A DNA stretch of 64,000 nucleotides, taken from NCBI GenBank assembly GCA_001803205.1, contig MHBE01000052.1:1-64000 (forward strand). The letters run 5' to 3'. The DNA is from Lentisphaerae bacterium GWF2_38_69 (GTDB lineage Bacteria; Verrucomicrobiota; Lentisphaeria; Victivallales; GWF2-38-69). Position numbers and translations under genes: made by a program. The notes under the pieces are model-generated. The model made no database searches and was not told the origin of the DNA. It saw only the letters and a list, made by a program, of their open reading frames with translations. Below are positions 5,202 to 12,903 of this stretch, piece after piece; position 1 is the first letter of the stretch; each line of letters opens with the position of its first letter.

Positions 5202-5750
5202 TTACTGATTTCTGTTTTGCTTCGGTTCATCTATTTGCATCTTGAGTTCATCCGGCAATATATCCCATAATTGAGGGTGGCTTTCAACAAGCCTTGCAAT
5301 ATCGCCCAAATCCTTCAGTTTTTTACTCTGTCTTCTGGATGCGTCCTTCCAGGCACGAATTTTCCCTTCAAGCGTATCTTCTAAGGATGCAACTCTCATT
5401 AATATTCCATGCACATCTGCCGGAACGGAGCAAGCAGGATATCCTTGATATTCTTTTTCCGTGCTCAGCTGTATGCTTACTTTTGAATTCCCCTTGAAGT
5501 TAATGGACCACGCGAACCTCTCGGAGGAAAACCCATTTTCCTCAAGTATCTTCACCACTTCTTCAATTGATTCAGTTGCCACGACCAAATCAACATCTTG
5601 TGTAACCATCGGTTCTTCTGCCCAGTGATTTACTGCAATTCCGCCAATAGCACACCATTGAATATCTGAGCTTTCTAAACAGGCCACGACTCTCATAACA
5701 TCGTCCGTTCCTCCGCCTGTTTGCCAATCATAAAATTTTTTAGGTGTCAT
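5202..5750 (-). CDS. Nucleotidyltransferase-fold protein (AbiEii/MNT-like)
   Basis: This is a 182-aa protein with the polymerase-beta fold signature: GG at residues 36-37 in AIGGIAVNHW and the metal-binding pair in DVDLVV at 52-57. The rest is helical with a basic KIRAWKDASRRQSKKLKDLGD stretch, split here only for its Arg/Lys content. Such small proteins act as antitoxins or toxins that add nucleotides to tRNA or protein partners, or as antibiotic nucleotidyltransferases. An upstream minus-strand frame of 29 codons overlaps its start by ATGA, so it may have lost a partner gene. The activity is not provable from sequence. Confidence 0.7.
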   Translation of the reverse strand: MTPKKFYDWQTGGGTDDVMRVVACLESSDIQWCAIGGIAVNHWAEEPMVTQDVDLVVATESIEEVVKILEENGFSSERFAWSINFKGNSKVSIQLSTEKEYQGYPACSVPADVHGILMRVASLEDTLEGKIRAWKDASRRQSKKLKDLGDIARLVESHPQLWDILPDELKMQIDEPKQNRNQ

Positions 5751-5907
5751 CCTTTATCCTTTTCAATTATTGCCTTTTTTGCCTTCATTGGCTTTTTATC
5801 TTGCAACACACGATGTGCTGCTCTTTTGCCAAACCAAGAATTCTATTGCCACCAACGGTCGGCGGCATGCAATCGTTGGGGATTGCGGGCTACTTTCCTG
5901 TCAAACT

Positions 5908-5989
5908 ACACCTAACTTAATGCGGGGCAAAACACACGAGTAACCACTTAATTCCCAATGTTTTATACCGCTTATTAGCCGTTAGGTGT
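5908..5989. repeat. Integron attC-like recombination site
   Basis: A perfect nine-base inverted repeat, ACACCTAAC at 5908-5916 and GTTAGGTGT at 5981-5989, contains the attC core forms RYYYAAC and GTTRRRY. Inside it, AATGCGG pairs with CCGCTTATT with extra unpaired bases, and CAAAACA pairs with TGTTTTA, giving an 82-bp imperfect hairpin of typical attC size. It starts four bases after the stop codon of the minus-strand gene at 5993-6373, where a cassette attC would sit. No integrase gene is in the window. Confidence 0.55.
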
Positions 5990-5992
5990 TTT

Positions 5993-6373
5993 CTATTTGT
6001 TCCATTTCGGTAATTTTCCGGTTTGCTCAATAAAGTCTTTTAGCATTTCAACTTGTTCTTTCTTTTGTTCGTCTTTACCATTCGTTACATACCAATACAC
6101 ATCAAGTGCATCTGTTTTGTCTTTTAACATCTGGTAAGTCCAACCTATTTTTCTTGAGTTTTTATCGTAGTGAACTCCATTCACAATTTCGTCAAATAGT
6201 CCACCTGAGTTTGAGTAACCGATATAAACCAAGTTAATTTTCCCGTTTCGCAATTCTAATACCTTAAAAACACCATCTTTGTCTTTTGGTGCATTGCAGA
6301 CTTTTTCTAAATCTTTGTCTGCTTCAAAAAAGAAATGGTCATTGTCTGTATATTTCTTCGGCTCTTGAAACAT
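5993..6373 (-). CDS. Small accessory protein with a possible GIY-YIG-like core
   Basis: This 126-aa protein contains GVFKVLELRNGKINLVYIG, a pattern that resembles the beta strands and YIG element of GIY-YIG folds, followed by an aromatic segment LDVYWYVTNG and a PKWN end. Similar short proteins occur next to restriction-modification genes, as here, but I cannot name a family with confidence. It is the last gene of the minus-strand island, ten bases after the DUF3781 gene, and an attC-like hairpin begins directly after its stop. Base and codon use match the restriction genes, so it probably arrived with them. Confidence 0.6.
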   Translation of the reverse strand: MFQEPKKYTDNDHFFFEADKDLEKVCNAPKDKDGVFKVLELRNGKINLVYIGYSNSGGLFDEIVNGVHYDKNSRKIGWTYQMLKDKTDALDVYWYVTNGKDEQKKEQVEMLKDFIEQTGKLPKWNK

Positions 6374-6383
6374 TGTATAATTA

Positions 6384-6656
6384 TTATTTCGTTGTTTTCT
6401 TATTCAACCTGTCTGCTGTAATTATTCTATTAGTATAAGAATTAATTGTCAGCCTAACATTTTTATAATTGTTTGTAATGTAAATATTTTTCCCTGTTTT
6501 TTGAAACATTGTTTTGTCTGTTCCTTCAATAATTTCATAAATCATTTTCTCGATTTTATCTTTTGGGAGTTGTATATTCAACTTCTTATTAATTCTTTCA
6601 TAAACAAGGTCAGTATAACAAATTTTATCTAAGATTTCTGTTTTATAGTCTTCCAT
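6384..6656 (-). CDS. DUF3781 family protein
   Basis: This 90-aa cytoplasmic protein has the DUF3781 pattern: a helical opening with CYTDLVYERINKKLNI, then KTGKNIYITN and VRLTINSYTNRIITADRL. The family has no established biochemical role. It lies between the small possible GIY-YIG protein and the large restriction gene, on the same strand. A gap of 232 bases separates it from the large gene, so it may have its own promoter. Confidence 0.7.
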   Translation of the reverse strand: MEDYKTEILDKICYTDLVYERINKKLNIQLPKDKIEKMIYEIIEGTDKTMFQKTGKNIYITNNYKNVRLTINSYTNRIITADRLNKKTTK

Positions 6657-6888
6657 GCAAAGTTTTGCTCAATTTTTATATTTTATTCTCTCACAGCGTC
6701 TTAATAATTTTCTTTTTTAACCTGTTATTAGCTACAGGTGATTCTGTATACAGGCACAAATCTCTTCAAAAAATACTTGATTTCTTAATTGTTTTCTAAT
6801 TTAACTTGGTCTTTTTCTTCTGCGGCTGCCATTATGCAAAACCGTTGTTGAGCGTTGGCTTGTAATTGGTCAAATTCATTGTCATTTT
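6657..6888. other. AT-rich spacer downstream of the restriction gene
   Basis: No open frame or T-run hairpin is convincing here. It contains a GCGTTGGC-type segment near 6855 that resembles the spacer at 12140-12260, which supports a common foreign origin for the genes between them. Confidence 0.3.
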
Positions 6889-9800
6889 TTAGTCTGTCAT
6901 TGGTTTAATCATACTTTCTATAAACTCAATTTCTTCATTGCTCAGTTTGTATTTTTTATACAATTCTTTGTCAATTTCTTGTGTCGATTTACTCCAGTTT
7001 ATGTCTGAATTTGCAGTAAAGTTTTGTGTTGGCACAAATCGGAAAGTTTTGGAAGTTGCATCTTGACTTGCTTTTCCTAAACTATGTTGAAATCTTGCAA
7101 ACTTTGTAGTTAAATACTTTGTTAGGTTTTTTGCTGAATGTTCGTCCAAATTCAATTCAACTCCAATTACTAAATATGATTCTGTACAAATTGTATTTGG
7201 AATACCAACAAATGAATTAAGGTTATCGTCATTTAATTCCGTACCAATGTTATTTGCTCTTGGTGTAAAGACCTTGAATTTGTCAATCCATCCTGTGTTT
7301 TTTGTAATTTCCTCTCTTTCTAAAAAACCAGTTTGTTTGCCTTTTCCATAACAAATAACAGGATTTTTCAATCCTTTTTTATCACCTCTATATTTTCTAT
7401 TGTTTTTAACAATGTTTGCATCTATGTCAAAAGGTCTTCTCGGTGAAATATGAGTTTCAAATGAATTAAATTCCGAAATAGAGTTGATTTTTTTTATTAT
7501 TTCTATTGCAATACTATGACGAATTAGAATGTCTGAATCTTCTGTTTTAAGACTTCTCTCATTTATTTTGGGAATTAAACTGTCTTTGTAAGTAAAAACT
7601 TTAGTTAAATCCTTTGAATTATCACAATTTTTATTCCAATGGAAATAGCAAATACCACCTCTTAAATTTATGTTTTGAAAAATTAAATCTGGTTTCAGGA
7701 AATCGTGCAATTCGGAAATGTGTATATCGTTTAGCATTTGTGACCTAAATACATCTAATCCCTTTCCACCTGCAAACCATCTTGTAGGCATAATCATAGC
7801 AATATTACTTGGGCTTAACTGCTTAGCTACATCCACAAAAAGATTATAAATTGGTTTGGCACTTGCTTGAGCACCACCGTCACTTTGCTGATAAGGCGGA
7901 TTGCCTACAATTGCATTGAATTTCATTTTCTTGTTGTTTATTTTGATGGTTTCTTTTTCAATGAATTTATTTTCACTGATTAAATCGTAAGAGGTGTAGT
8001 TAGCTTCAATTAGTTTTACATCTAATTCCAGCAACTTGTACACTTTTCTGGTAAACTCATACGCAATTTTTGAGGTTGGTATAGAGTAGAATTTATTGGC
8101 TACATCTTTACCAAACTTTTTATAAACGGCATACACAAACTCGCCTTGTTTGGAAGCAATATCTAAAAACATTGTATTCTTATCAACGGCTTTGGTTGGC
8201 AAACCGCTAATGATTTTGTCGGTTACAATTTCAGGAGTTACAATTTCAGAATCTGATAACCGACTAAACTTTTTCATTGCATTACTCGCTCTTTCTATTG
8301 GCGAAATGGCTGTATCGTTGGCTAATGAATTAATGTTGTGAATTTTATAATCTAGTTCGCTTAAAATAAAAGGATTGATGTGTTTTTGAAACAAATCAAG
8401 TATTGTGATTTCAAGACTCAAATTTGAAGCAATACGCAAATTATCAGAGTTATCCTTGATGTGGTTAATGATTTCTTGTAAGGATTTAACTCTAGTATCT
8501 GTTAAAAATGCAAAGAATAAAATTCTTGCGTAATACATAGCAAATTGACCTTTATAGTCATTTACAGCTTCATCATCTTTGGTTTTGGATTTTGCATTTC
8601 CTTCATTTTCATCTTCGTCATTATCAGGAGAATCATCAATATCAATATCGTCTCCTTCTCCGTCTGCTGGTGGAATTTCTAAACCTTGGCGAGAACCAAT
8701 TTTTCCTTGTCTTTCAATTTCAGCTTTGATTGCTTCAATATCCAACAAGGAATAATCAATGGAAATAGTTGTAGCTTCATCAAATACACTTCTACTACTC
8801 GAATATTTACGAACAGCATTCAAAATATCTGCTGGCTGTATTTGAACAATTTTATTGTTGTTTAAAACTACAATTGGAGATATTTGAAGTTCTTTTCGGA
8901 TTCGTTCCTCTAGTTTGCTGTTTCCGTTAGATTCAGTATTTACATTGTAAATCTGTGATTTATGTTCCTGCATTTGGAACATTCTATTCGGGTTAAAGTC
9001 AACCAATAAGGTTTGTGGTTTCATATTGAATTTAACCACATCACCATTCGGCTCTTTGAAAATTTTTACGAATTGATTTTGTAAACGAAAAATTGCTTGG
9101 TCATATTCTTGTGGTGATGCCGTGTCTTTTAGATACAGCATTGTGTCCCATTCAGGAACTGTACTTCCTGTAAGCATTCTGTTTACGGTCAAAGTGATTG
9201 TTTTTATATTCTCACTTTCACACTTTTTTATTTTGGCTTGTACAGTTTGTGTGTCTTTGAAGTTTTTTTCGTTCTCAACCCCAGAAATATTGATGACTTC
9301 GTAATTATTAAGATGTTTAAACTTGTTATTCTTGATTAATTCTTCTAATGCGTCACAAGAGGCTCTGTAAGGCAAAACACAAACGAGATGACGGCACATT
9401 TTGCCCTCTTTTATTTTATCATAATCAAGGAAACATAATAAATTTTCATCTGTTTCGGAACCGTCAATTACTTTTAATAAGTCGAGAATTTCCTTTTCGT
9501 GAATAAACTTCTTATGTAATTTATTTTCTTTGTCTATGGTTATTGATTGAGGTCTAAAAAGTTCTGAAAAAACATAGGTTACACCTTTCTTTTTCATTTC
9601 CTCCATTTTCTTTCGGGATGATTCATTGGGATTAAAAGCAAAACGAATCATTTGAGGAAATCCATAATAGGGATTATCCCATTCTTTGATTTCGTCTTTG
9701 TTTAGATTTTCTAAATCCCATTGTGCTTGGTCTTCTGCAATGTTTGTGAATTGATAAAATGCTATGATATCCTCATTTGTAAACTCACTATTCATCAAAA

Positions 9801-10851
9801 TTCGATAGGGAGTTCCAGAAAGATGAATGCGGATTTTTGCTTTTAACTCTTTCTCAATATCTTCAATTTTATCAATCGAAATATCGTTGAGCTTTTCCTC
9901 ACTTTTAATTTCTTTGGCTTTTAAATCGCCTGCCCTTAAAACTTTACCGTACTCAGTTGCTCTTGCTCCAAAATGTGTTTCATCTATGAGCAATAAGTCA
10001 ATTTGATTTTCAAAAACTTCTTTGTGTTTTGATTTGATTTCATCACCTTGCAAGTCTTGTAAGGTTAGAAACAAAACGATTTTTTCGTTTGCCTTCTGCT
10101 TTTCTGCAATAATAGTATCGCTTGTTAAAAGAGAGGTACTATCTAAAAAACAATAGACATCAAATTTAACATGACTTTCAACCGTTTTTTTCCATTCTTC
10201 TTTAACATCAGCCTTTGCAGAAACCACAACAACAAGTTTAGCTCCCATTTCAACTGCACAACACATTGAGGTAAATGATTTACCAAAACGCATTACTGCA
10301 TACATCAGCAAGTTTGTTCTGCCTTTTTTTCTGGCTTCACGAAAATTATCTACTGTTTTTTGTTGATTGGGTCGAAGTGGATAATCTTCACTTCTTGTGT
10401 AGGTGTGAGTAATAGGAATATGACTTTCATCAAAACGATAATATTGATATTTTGATTCATTGTTTTGATGTCCACTTTTAATATCTTCTATGGCATCTTG
10501 CAGGTCTTTCTTTGTTGCGTTTTCAAAAAACTCATTGGAATAGTATGGGATTCCATTTAAAGAGTTTGGTTTTAATCTGCTTCTATTTAATTCGTTTTCA
10601 AGAAAAAAGTGAACTGCATAATCTCTAAAAAAAGTTTCTTCATCTACTTTTGCAACATCTTCAAACTTTTTTTCAAGGTTTGGGAAGTATTTACGCCATT
10701 CATTCAACCTCATTTCAATTGGTCGATAGGTATCACCAACTTTCAAATAATTTGGAATTGTTTCTGTAGTAAAAGCATAGATTTGTGGTTCAACTCTTCC
10801 AATGATAATATCATTAAGTACATCTACATTTATATTGTTTACTCCTGCCAT
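6889..10851 (-). CDS. GIY-YIG nuclease - SF2 helicase - adenine DNA methyltransferase fusion (single-chain restriction-modification enzyme)
   Basis: This 1320-aa protein has three parts. Residues 20-112 look like a GIY-YIG/T5orf172-type nuclease: QIYAF, YLKVGDT, Arg48 and Glu107 of SNEFFE. Residues 155-600 form an SF2 helicase with the Walker A region RFGKSFT (188-194), the box DETH (290-293) and SGT (345-347), ending at YDQAIFRLQNQF. After an acidic linker (730-760), residues 865-1075 are an N6-adenine methyltransferase: EIVTPE, motif I FLDIASKQGEF, and catalytic NPPY at 984-987. The remainder (about 1080-1290) should recognise DNA. The order resembles Type ISP enzymes, with a GIY-YIG nuclease in place of the Mrr nuclease. 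It is third in an operon after an XRE regulator and 'subunit M', three bases downstream of the latter. Motif I is atypical (DIASKQG rather than DPACGSG). Target site and activity are unknown. Confidence 0.88.
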   Translation of the reverse strand: MAGVNNINVDVLNDIIIGRVEPQIYAFTTETIPNYLKVGDTYRPIEMRLNEWRKYFPNLEKKFEDVAKVDEETFFRDYAVHFFLENELNRSRLKPNSLNGIPYYSNEFFENATKKDLQDAIEDIKSGHQNNESKYQYYRFDESHIPITHTYTRSEDYPLRPNQQKTVDNFREARKKGRTNLLMYAVMRFGKSFTSMCCAVEMGAKLVVVVSAKADVKEEWKKTVESHVKFDVYCFLDSTSLLTSDTIIAEKQKANEKIVLFLTLQDLQGDEIKSKHKEVFENQIDLLLIDETHFGARATEYGKVLRAGDLKAKEIKSEEKLNDISIDKIEDIEKELKAKIRIHLSGTPYRILMNSEFTNEDIIAFYQFTNIAEDQAQWDLENLNKDEIKEWDNPYYGFPQMIRFAFNPNESSRKKMEEMKKKGVTYVFSELFRPQSITIDKENKLHKKFIHEKEILDLLKVIDGSETDENLLCFLDYDKIKEGKMCRHLVCVLPYRASCDALEELIKNNKFKHLNNYEVINISGVENEKNFKDTQTVQAKIKKCESENIKTITLTVNRMLTGSTVPEWDTMLYLKDTASPQEYDQAIFRLQNQFVKIFKEPNGDVVKFNMKPQTLLVDFNPNRMFQMQEHKSQIYNVNTESNGNSKLEERIRKELQISPIVVLNNNKIVQIQPADILNAVRKYSSSRSVFDEATTISIDYSLLDIEAIKAEIERQGKIGSRQGLEIPPADGEGDDIDIDDSPDNDEDENEGNAKSKTKDDEAVNDYKGQFAMYYARILFFAFLTDTRVKSLQEIINHIKDNSDNLRIASNLSLEITILDLFQKHINPFILSELDYKIHNINSLANDTAISPIERASNAMKKFSRLSDSEIVTPEIVTDKIISGLPTKAVDKNTMFLDIASKQGEFVYAVYKKFGKDVANKFYSIPTSKIAYEFTRKVYKLLELDVKLIEANYTSYDLISENKFIEKETIKINNKKMKFNAIVGNPPYQQSDGGAQASAKPIYNLFVDVAKQLSPSNIAMIMPTRWFAGGKGLDVFRSQMLNDIHISELHDFLKPDLIFQNINLRGGICYFHWNKNCDNSKDLTKVFTYKDSLIPKINERSLKTEDSDILIRHSIAIEIIKKINSISEFNSFETHISPRRPFDIDANIVKNNRKYRGDKKGLKNPVICYGKGKQTGFLEREEITKNTGWIDKFKVFTPRANNIGTELNDDNLNSFVGIPNTICTESYLVIGVELNLDEHSAKNLTKYLTTKFARFQHSLGKASQDATSKTFRFVPTQNFTANSDINWSKSTQEIDKELYKKYKLSNEEIEFIESMIKPMTD

Positions 10852-10854
10852 AAT

Positions 10855-11835
10855 TTACTTTTCTAAAAGTGAAATGAATTTAATAGGCTTTTCTATTTCC
10901 CAATCCATAATGTTGCAATAAATGCCATTGTGTAGCTTAATATTTTGCGTTTCACAACCTTTGCATTTCTTTATTTCTATTTTAGTTTCAAAAAAATCTG
11001 GAATTTCTATGGTTTCATCTTTACAACTATTCGGAATAATACCTTTCAAACCGTCCATTTGCCAAATATTCCAAGAAATGATTTCTGCTATATTTTGAAT
11101 GTTTTCAAGTGATGGTTCAGTTTCAAATTTGTATGAAAAGTTTTCTATGAATGTTATAAGTAACGCTTCACGAGCCAAAAGCAAACTATCTCCCTGCCAC
11201 TCAAAACCGTAAGTGCTTTTAAATGCGGTTTTAACCGCTTCCAACCAATCAGTTATTGAGTCTAAATTTTCATTTACTACTCTTAATTTTCTGTCTAAAA
11301 TTCCAATTCTGTCTTCAATCTTAATAAATTCTCCAGTTGTTGTGTCGTATCTACTGACTAGATAAGGTGCTTCACCACAAGAAATTTCTAATCGTGTATC
11401 TCGAAGATAGTCTTGCCAGGTTTTGCCTTTTGGAAAAACTATTTTTTCTTTTGTTGTTTCCCAAGATTTTGTGCCATTCTTCAACACGATTTCTTTATTG
11501 AAAACATTCTCTTTCCCAAACCAAGAATTGTCAACCAAATTATTTTGTGCATTGCATATCCAAGAAGGCGTGAAAACTTCTGCCATTTCTTTGGAGCGTG
11601 ATAATTGCAAAATTTTGTCCTTGTGAACCCTTGGCATTATCACATTGCCTTTTTCTCCTGTGATTAATTCAGGCGATATTTCTGAATTAAATCTGTATGA
11701 TTCTCCGAGGTTCTCGTAGTTGTCTGTTGCCCAAAAAATATTTTTTTGAGTGGTTTGGTCACGCAGTAGTATTCCGAGAATGTCAGGGTACTTCTCGATT
11801 AACTCATTTTCTAATATGTCGATAACTACTTGCAC
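10855..11835 (-). CDS. Restriction-modification 'subunit M' family protein, lacking methyltransferase catalytic motifs
   Basis: This 326-aa protein belongs to the family usually labelled restriction endonuclease subunit M. It has AEVFTPSWICNAQNN at 85-99, the segment that precedes motif I in adenine methyltransferases, and the family signature CGEAPYLVSRYD at 153-164. It has no FxPxxGxG motif I and no NPPY, so it cannot methylate alone. CKGC at 291-294 and Cys307 could bind zinc. It overlaps the XRE gene by ten bases and precedes the large nuclease-helicase-methyltransferase by three. It is best read as a structural or recognition partner of that enzyme; this role is inferred from context. 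Confidence 0.82.
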   Translation of the reverse strand: MQVVIDILENELIEKYPDILGILLRDQTTQKNIFWATDNYENLGESYRFNSEISPELITGEKGNVIMPRVHKDKILQLSRSKEMAEVFTPSWICNAQNNLVDNSWFGKENVFNKEIVLKNGTKSWETTKEKIVFPKGKTWQDYLRDTRLEISCGEAPYLVSRYDTTTGEFIKIEDRIGILDRKLRVVNENLDSITDWLEAVKTAFKSTYGFEWQGDSLLLAREALLITFIENFSYKFETEPSLENIQNIAEIISWNIWQMDGLKGIIPNSCKDETIEIPDFFETKIEIKKCKGCETQNIKLHNGIYCNIMDWEIEKPIKFISLLEK

Positions 11836-12035
11836 TTGTATACTTCTTCGTTAGTTTTTAAAAGTTCTTTTACATCAATATTTAGAATGTTCGTTATTTC
11901 ATATAGCACTTCAAGTCTTGGTTGTTGTCTATTTTGCACATAACCATTCCCCATATTGTAGCTCTTACCAAGCTGTTCGGCTAACCAAGTTTGCTTAATT
12001 CCTTTTTCTTCAAGTAATTCTTTAATTCTGTTCAT
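11826..12035 (-). CDS. XRE-family helix-turn-helix controller protein
   Basis: This 69-aa Cro/C1-type DNA-binding protein has the helix-turn-helix within IKQTWLAEQLGKSYNMGNGY and ends with LNIDVKELLKTNEE, as in small controller proteins of restriction-modification operons. It is first in the three-gene minus-strand operon and its end overlaps the subunit M gene. By analogy with C proteins it probably times expression so that methylation precedes restriction. Very similar regulators are common in Bacteroidetes, which hints at the donor of the island. Confidence 0.85.
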   Translation of the reverse strand: MNRIKELLEEKGIKQTWLAEQLGKSYNMGNGYVQNRQQPRLEVLYEITNILNIDVKELLKTNEEVYKCK

Positions 12036-12548: not shown

Positions 12549-12740
12549 ATGAGAACCAATATTGTAATTGAAGATAAATTAATGGATGCAGCTATAAGAA
12601 TAGGAAAATTTCCAACCAAAAGGGAAGCTGTCGAAAGCGCATTAAAACTCTTGATACAGATGAAAAGCCAGCATAAGGTTTCAGAACTACAGGGTAAGAT
12701 TAACTGGGAAGGAAATCTTGCAGAGATGAGAAAAGATTGA
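12549..12740 (+). CDS. vapB: VapB-type antitoxin
   Basis: This 63-aa protein has the ribbon-helix-helix start TNIVIEDKLMDAAIR and the KREAVESALKLLI helix of VapB/DUF2191 antitoxins, which bind their own promoter and neutralise a PIN-domain RNase. The short C-terminal tail (KINWEGNLAEMRKD) is the part that normally plugs the toxin. The toxin frame begins one base after its stop but is broken, so this antitoxin is now an orphan. The upstream sequence contains TGTGTGTTAATAATACACA, an imperfect palindrome around 12518-12536 that may be its operator. Confidence 0.85.
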   Translation: MRTNIVIEDKLMDAAIRIGKFPTKREAVESALKLLIQMKSQHKVSELQGKINWEGNLAEMRKD

Positions 12741-12741
12741 A

Positions 12742-12903
12742 ATGATAATAATTGATACCTCAGCCTGGATTGAATTTCTAAGACCTTCGGGGAGCAAAGT
12801 TATTTCAGATGCGGTTAAATATGTCCTTGAGAATGAGTATGTCGGTATTGGCGATCTAATTTATTGCTAAATACTTCAGGGAGCTAAAAACGACACTAAT
12901 TGA
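12742..12903 (+). pseudogene. Broken VapC toxin (PIN-domain RNase)
   Basis: The frame starts one base after vapB with MIIIDTSAWIEFLRPSG, the first PIN strand and acidic residue (Asp5). It stops after 42 codons at a TAA (12868-12870). Reading through, the same frame continues as ILQGAKNDTN, the next part of VapC. Intact VapC has a glutamate in the CEILQGAK motif, so the stop sits exactly at the second catalytic acid (GAA to TAA). Further stops follow and the rest of the domain is lost. No active toxin is expected. Confidence 0.75.

Follow-up and report, generated by a model that had tools for sequence, protein, structure and literature searches.

A Type ISP-like restriction-modification operon with a GIY-YIG-clan nuclease domain and a proposed split, modular N6-adenine methyltransferase

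Why would a restriction-modification protein that seems to hold nuclease, helicase and methyltransferase in a single chain be encoded next to a second methyltransferase-like gene? The question is raised by positions 5993-12035 of the window (the whole 64,000-nucleotide stretch analysed here, from Lentisphaerae bacterium GWF2_38_69), where the second gene, 'subunit M' (SubM), had been taken for a non-catalytic component in a first-pass annotation. We propose, with a probability of about 0.75, that the operon encodes an ATP-dependent restriction-modification enzyme of Type ISP-like build, with a GIY-YIG nuclease and a naturally split, modular N6-adenine methyltransferase. Complementary loss of motifs, an obligate SubM, rearranged gene orders, natural fusions and exchange of the catalytic half as a unit can all be read from the sequences; physical assembly, methylation, translocation, cleavage and XRE control are what we infer.

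The open reading frames of positions 5993-12035 all lie on the minus strand, and three of them form a head-to-tail set. The first (11826-12035) encodes a 69-aa XRE/HTH protein, a probable controller (Pfam HTH_26, 35.6 bits, and HTH_3). It overlaps the gene for the 326-aa SubM (10855-11835; assigned from motifs, a profile match and PADLOC model PDLC03390), and a few bases separate the latter from the gene for a 1320-aa restriction-modification protein (6889-10851; assigned from Pfam, PADLOC and invariant motifs). The long protein has the order nuclease (Nuc), helicase (Hel), coupler, MTn, MTc and target-recognition domain, where MTn and MTc denote the SAM-binding and catalytic halves of the methyltransferase. 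Based on 38 loci fetched from GTDB, the three genes are adjacent in most Bacteroidota loci, with long proteins 63-90% identical, and the XRE gene is kept upstream of SubM in most Bacteroidota loci of the window's type. The three-gene set is far beyond chance, and the XRE-containing operon of the first-pass annotation holds. PADLOC has full-length models that match both large proteins (PDLC03626 REase_MTase_IIG, 1402 bits; PDLC03390 MTase_II, 418 bits), so the family itself is already known, but these names omit the helicase, the methyltransferase split and the mutual dependence of the two proteins. Among open-licence papers we found none describing the family of SubM and long protein, or its split.

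Two further minus-strand genes, a DUF3781 gene (6384-6656; Pfam, 62.5 bits) and a 126-aa ORF (5993-6373) that looked GIY-YIG-like by eye, had been suggested as accessory components. This suggestion was rejected, as neither was found beside the operon at any other locus scanned. The 126-aa ORF matched no Pfam family and showed no hhalign similarity to the nuclease domain, and a search of 388 genomes from the phylum found no relative. Other features of the neighbourhood include, immediately upstream of the operon, short ORFs resembling, by eye, a VapB antitoxin and a truncated PIN-domain toxin (12549-12870), an AbiEii-like nucleotidyltransferase downstream (5202-5750; 25.4 bits against a Pfam cut-off of 22.5) and an attC-like integron hairpin, also by eye, at 5840-6000 (CACCTAAC ... 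GTTAGGTG). An integron origin was rejected: the genome has no integron integrase scoring above the cut-off, and a weak attC-like signal of the same kind appeared in 14 of 14 control genomes. No plasmid copy of the window's operon was found at the DNA level.

The N-terminal part of the long protein carries a GIY-YIG/T5orf172 nuclease domain (residues 15-130; 10462-10809), with a Pfam T5orf172 match at residues 24-124 (26.6 bits, cut-off 20) that recurs in 22 of 32 relatives scanned singly. We take T5orf172 to be a member of Pfam's GIY-YIG clan, and membership of that superfamily is indicated by the above-threshold profile and by Y25, K37, G39 and R48, which are invariant together with D77, H81, E107 and F109. 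Because Asp77 occupies what we presume to be the position of the catalytic Glu of a GIY-YIG nuclease, nuclease activity is not certain. An SF2 helicase-like ATPase follows (residues 155-700; 8752-10389), matched by Pfam ResIII at residues 157-350 (47 bits, above the cut-off) and bearing MRFGKS, DETH, SGTP and QAIFRLQ; the motifs MRFGK, DE.H, SGTP and Q..FR.Q are invariant across 25 relatives. PDB searches with the long protein, either as a single sequence or as a profile, returned no sequence relatives.

In Type ISP enzymes such as LlaGI and LlaBIII, a single chain comprises, in this order, nuclease, SF2 helicase, coupler, gamma-class N6-adenine methyltransferase and target-recognition domain (PMC4872093, PMC4666363). 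The domain order of the long protein is the same, including helicase, methyltransferase and target-recognition domain in a single chain, and in this respect the first-pass annotation was right: T5orf172, ResIII and Eco57I all score above their Pfam cut-offs within one polypeptide. It differs in three ways. The N-terminal nuclease of Type ISP enzymes is of the Mrr family (PD-(D/E)XK), whereas here it is T5orf172; LlaGI is described as a single-polypeptide enzyme, whereas here there are two genes; and, judged by motif, the methyltransferase is not complete in one chain, its SAM half being degenerate and apparently supplied by the second gene. A further hallmark of Type ISP enzymes is that they cleave once two translocating enzymes have converged on asymmetric sites.

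The degenerate half, MTn (residues 850-975; 7927-8304), has lost the first glycine of motif I (DIASKQGEF, residues 897-905; 8137-8163), which is replaced by Lys in 102 and by Thr in three of 105 readable domains and is never Gly. Motif II has no acidic residue, reading FYSIPTS in the window and FGIGIT in the proteobacterial branch, while motif X retains its TP and motif I its second Gly. SAM binding may nevertheless survive a Lys in motif I. The catalytic half, MTc (residues 976-1320; 6892-7926), begins just before NPPY, the catalytic motif IV (residues 984-987; 7891-7902), and continues into a probable target-recognition domain at about residues 1086-1280 (7012-7596), located by low identity between otherwise close loci. 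Pfam Eco57I matches residues 947-1058 (79.6 bits, above the cut-off), and 117 of 122 MTc domains have NPPY or NPPF, the remaining five being fragments or degraded. Of the features of a gamma-class, Eco57I-like N6-adenine methyltransferase, the long protein thus has NPPY and a C-terminal target domain, but lacks, within that chain, the GxG of motif I and an acidic motif II, which SubM would supply in trans.

SubM carries these motifs in order: X (EVFTPSW, residues 86-92), I (LEISCGEAPY, 149-158; 11362-11391), II (YGFEWQGDSLLLARE, 209-223) and III (NIWQMDGLK, 256-264), all invariant or nearly so in 30 relatives. The first glycine position of motif I is Gly in 141 of 141 readable SubM domains. 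The protein stops before motif IV and has no NPPY of its own; the sole NPPY flagged inside a SubM comes from a phage contig (L063) whose SubM is joined to the NPPY half in one protein. The window's SubM has no Pfam match, and its motif I is itself unusual, with CGEAP in place of CGSGN. The equivalent small gene of Firmicutes and Proteobacteria is a plain Pfam N6_Mtase N-half that ends before motif IV, with GEVFTP (X), LEPACGSGNFL (I), YGIEL (II) and HGDA (III), and SubM aligns with the proteobacterial N-half across all motifs (hhalign E 2.7e-8). Homology between MTn and SubM is also seen within the proteobacterial branch (hhalign E 9.4e-6, covering motifs X and I), which suggests that MTn is a degenerate version of the half that SubM contributes. 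AlphaFold modelled SubM alone with pLDDT 79.6 and pTM 0.82. Since a Foldseek search of this model against the PDB gave nothing significant (best E 0.13), the assignment of SubM as a methyltransferase half rests on sequence; PDB sequence searches with SubM gave chance-level matches only.

From these motifs SubM is most likely the SAM-binding half of a methyltransferase. It belongs to the operon, as first annotated, but is more than a non-catalytic add-on: it bears the SAM-binding motifs lost from the long protein, and the methyltransferase is therefore most likely split over both proteins. A methyltransferase without SAM binding, which the first-pass annotation had considered damaging to its reading, is partly what the degenerate motif I of the long chain alone amounts to; by motif, SubM would make good the loss. 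The split reading is supported by the complementarity of SubM (Gly in every readable domain, no NPPY), MTn (Lys or Thr in every readable domain) and MTc (NPPY or NPPF). In the mechanism that we propose, SubM would supply motifs X, I, II and III and MTc, the C-terminal third of the long protein, would supply the NPPY half and read the target, the two assembling into a single active site that methylates the host's sites. MTn, its SAM binding lost, would stay joined to the helicase and couple the MTc-bound target to ATP-driven translocation and GIY-YIG cleavage at an unmethylated site, and the XRE protein would regulate the operon.

Operons of this kind, most of them including the XRE gene, are spread over many orders of Bacteroidota, and others without a recognisable XRE gene were found in a Campylobacter, Mollicutes, Clostridia and a Treponema MAG. 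Relatives of the long protein were present in 44 of 388 Bacteroidota genomes drawn and window-type SubM relatives in 24, a difference mostly accounted for by loci with a SubM of the more canonical, proteobacterial type. We ran profiles for Nuc, Hel, MTn, MTc and SubM across all loci and found four full layouts: SubM / Nuc-Hel-MTn-MTc, as in the window (46 loci plus variants); SubM / MTn-MTc / Nuc-Hel (31 loci); SubM-MTc fused / Nuc-Hel-MTn (L081 and L109-L113); and SubM / MTc / Nuc-Hel-MTn (L080, L084 and L108). One further locus, L114, resembles either of the last two but has a frame break. In L080, L084 and L108 the separate MTc starts no more than about 20 residues from NPPY and includes no SAM half.

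SubM was in the same locus for 99 of the 104 loci with helicase and MTc, a count that takes in loci found through SubM, and for 57 of the 62 found with the long protein as query, which is unbiased towards SubM. The same five loci are the exceptions in both counts (L024, L036, L118, L144 and L146); in each a contig end cuts the locus just upstream, and SubM is present in 99 of 99 uncut loci. As related loci are not independent, these counts show consistency rather than probability. MTn was present in 98 of the 99 loci having helicase, MTc and SubM.

When the long protein served as query, no viral contig could be confirmed, whereas SubM-based and proteobacterial queries found many. Two phage contigs (L063 and L064) have SubM fused directly to MTc, and a third such fusion (L138) lies in a bacterial genome with no other part of the system beside it. 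These three, together with L070, have SubM and neither MTn nor helicase in the stretches examined. For L063 and L064 we also searched the records for helicase, nuclease and MTn and found none, although these may be fragmentary records and the single-protein search lacked a positive control. The MTc tree joins L063 to L062 (support 0.996) and places L064 inside the L054/L049/L057 group, with 0.997 for the L054-L064-L049 clade; the SubM tree gives L063 the same position and does not resolve L064. Since L063 and L064 group with different non-fused relatives, the phage fusions probably arose twice. An AlphaFold model of the L063 fusion was of medium confidence (pLDDT 69.4, pTM 0.63), poorest in the SubM half, and its best PDB matches were the N6-adenine methyltransferases CamA (E 2.1e-10), BrxX/PglX and M.TaqI. 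The fusion looks like a complete N6-adenine methyltransferase in this model, with its SubM half placed at low confidence. These nearest solved structures differ from the split system in being single chains with an intact SAM half, CamA and TaqI without a helicase.

Tenacibaculum phage PTm1 (L044) keeps MTc, XRE and SubM. A frameshift at a short run of A parts its MTn from its MTc (L044:7890-9390), which may reflect either an error in sequencing or a genuine split, and the annotated methylase begins at the equivalent of Met976, eight residues before NPPY. We infer that the phage SubM/MTc forms serve to protect the phage's own DNA. Sixteen SubM loci, nearly all viral, had no MTc or helicase nearby, and a partner was found elsewhere in four of ten searched records. 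Among the phage-contig SubM genes without MTc or helicase within 6 kb (L085, L087, L088, L090 and L092-L096), the partner lies elsewhere in the same record for L088, L092, L093 and L094. No partner was found in L085, L087, L090, L095 and L096, and these may therefore be genuine orphans that perhaps act on the enzyme of the host. Near the orphan SubM of L087, beside terminase genes, a second short ORF (L087:4420-5091) resembles the SAM-binding half of a methyltransferase without NPPY.

A tentative extension of the split reading is that MTn and SubM, as homologous halves, compete for the same face of MTc: bound to SubM, MTc would be a methyltransferase; bound to MTn, it would be a SAM-blind reader wired to helicase and nuclease, and exchange of the halves would switch between modification and restriction. 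This possibility fits the observed pattern, because MTn accompanies the helicase in almost every locus while the forms that would only methylate (L063, L064, L138 and L070) have SubM without either in the stretches examined.

Other explanations differ in what SubM is taken to do. Non-catalytic partners of methyltransferases are well known, and SubM might be a pseudo-enzyme that stabilizes or regulates a complete methyltransferase in the long protein, as METTL14 does for METTL3, with MTn binding SAM despite its Lys. Both Rossmann halves do stand in order in the long protein, and the residues that MTn retains in motifs X and I would suit such a role. We nonetheless consider this unlikely, given that MTc exists as a separate gene lacking a SAM half in three loci, that SubM replaces MTn in the direct MTc fusions (L063, L064, L081, L109-L113 and L138) and that in the proteobacterial and Firmicutes branches it is SubM, not MTn, that keeps a canonical motif I and an acidic motif II. 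SAM is needed for cleavage by Type I and some Type III enzymes, and a SAM-type pocket (by motif) together with obligate presence could alternatively mark SubM as a SAM sensor that licenses cleavage from outside the methyl-transfer site; this is improbable, as the phage fusions without nuclease or helicase keep SubM and lose MTn, which fits methylation and not cleavage. Least credible of all is an ordinary single-chain enzyme of Type IIG, the class named in the full-length PADLOC matches, with SubM as a decayed leftover: a leftover would not stay intact, with a strictly conserved core, in every uncut locus, and conserved SF2 helicase motifs, with their predicted ATP dependence, are at odds with Type IIG enzymes, which need no ATP and have no ATP-dependent translocase.

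The split enzyme also appears to be modular. Compared with the window, L016 has 94% identity over the nuclease, 88% over the helicase and 93% over MTn, whereas its two MTc segments show 42% and 21%; more generally, the target-recognition region can be only 21-30% identical where nuclease and helicase are 76-94% identical (for example, L016, L020 and L021). L042 (1499-5452) is the reverse case, with 22-25% identity to the window up to MTn, 62-65% in MTc and the joint at NPPY. The switch in identity falls within 12 residues of NPPY in L016, L020, L021, L027, L019 and L032, and, reversed, in L042; as read from these comparisons, MTc is swapped as a whole module whose breakpoints lie at NPPY. Cultured strains in which the operon has differing MTc modules include Cecembia rubra DSM 28057 and Flavobacterium rhamnosiphilum LB3P52. 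Distances between SubM proteins correlate with those of the nuclease (0.61) and helicase (0.51) and less with those of the recognition region (0.33), as expected of a constant subunit serving changing modules.

Additional, spare copies of MTc lie after the operon in L012, L075 and L098. In L098 (7446-8510 and 11597-12001) and L012 (10461-11714) they are direct repeats that begin at or ahead of NPPY, and the operon upstream of them is intact. L075 (9946-12980) has three MTc copies, one of them inverted, with inverted repeats of 33 nt (97%) and 45 nt (87%) at the NPPY codons, an array that might act as an invertible switch of specificity.

Among C5-cytosine enzymes, M.AquI and M.EcoHK31I are known examples of a natural split (PMC3404938). 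The likeness is that one methyltransferase is made from two polypeptides; the difference is that those enzymes act on cytosine C5 and hold motifs I to VIII together on their large subunit, whereas the present system would be an N6-adenine enzyme whose break falls between motifs III and IV, its long chain retaining a degenerate version of the half that is missing. If our reading is correct, this family would provide a natural N6-adenine DNA methyltransferase divided between motifs III and IV, in which a constant SubM serves exchangeable catalytic-recognition modules. It would explain how specificity changes in a restriction family by the swapping of one cassette at NPPY, show how phages could trim such an enzyme to a methylase with a protective role, and put right the 'Type IIG' and 'MTase' names under which both genes are currently listed.
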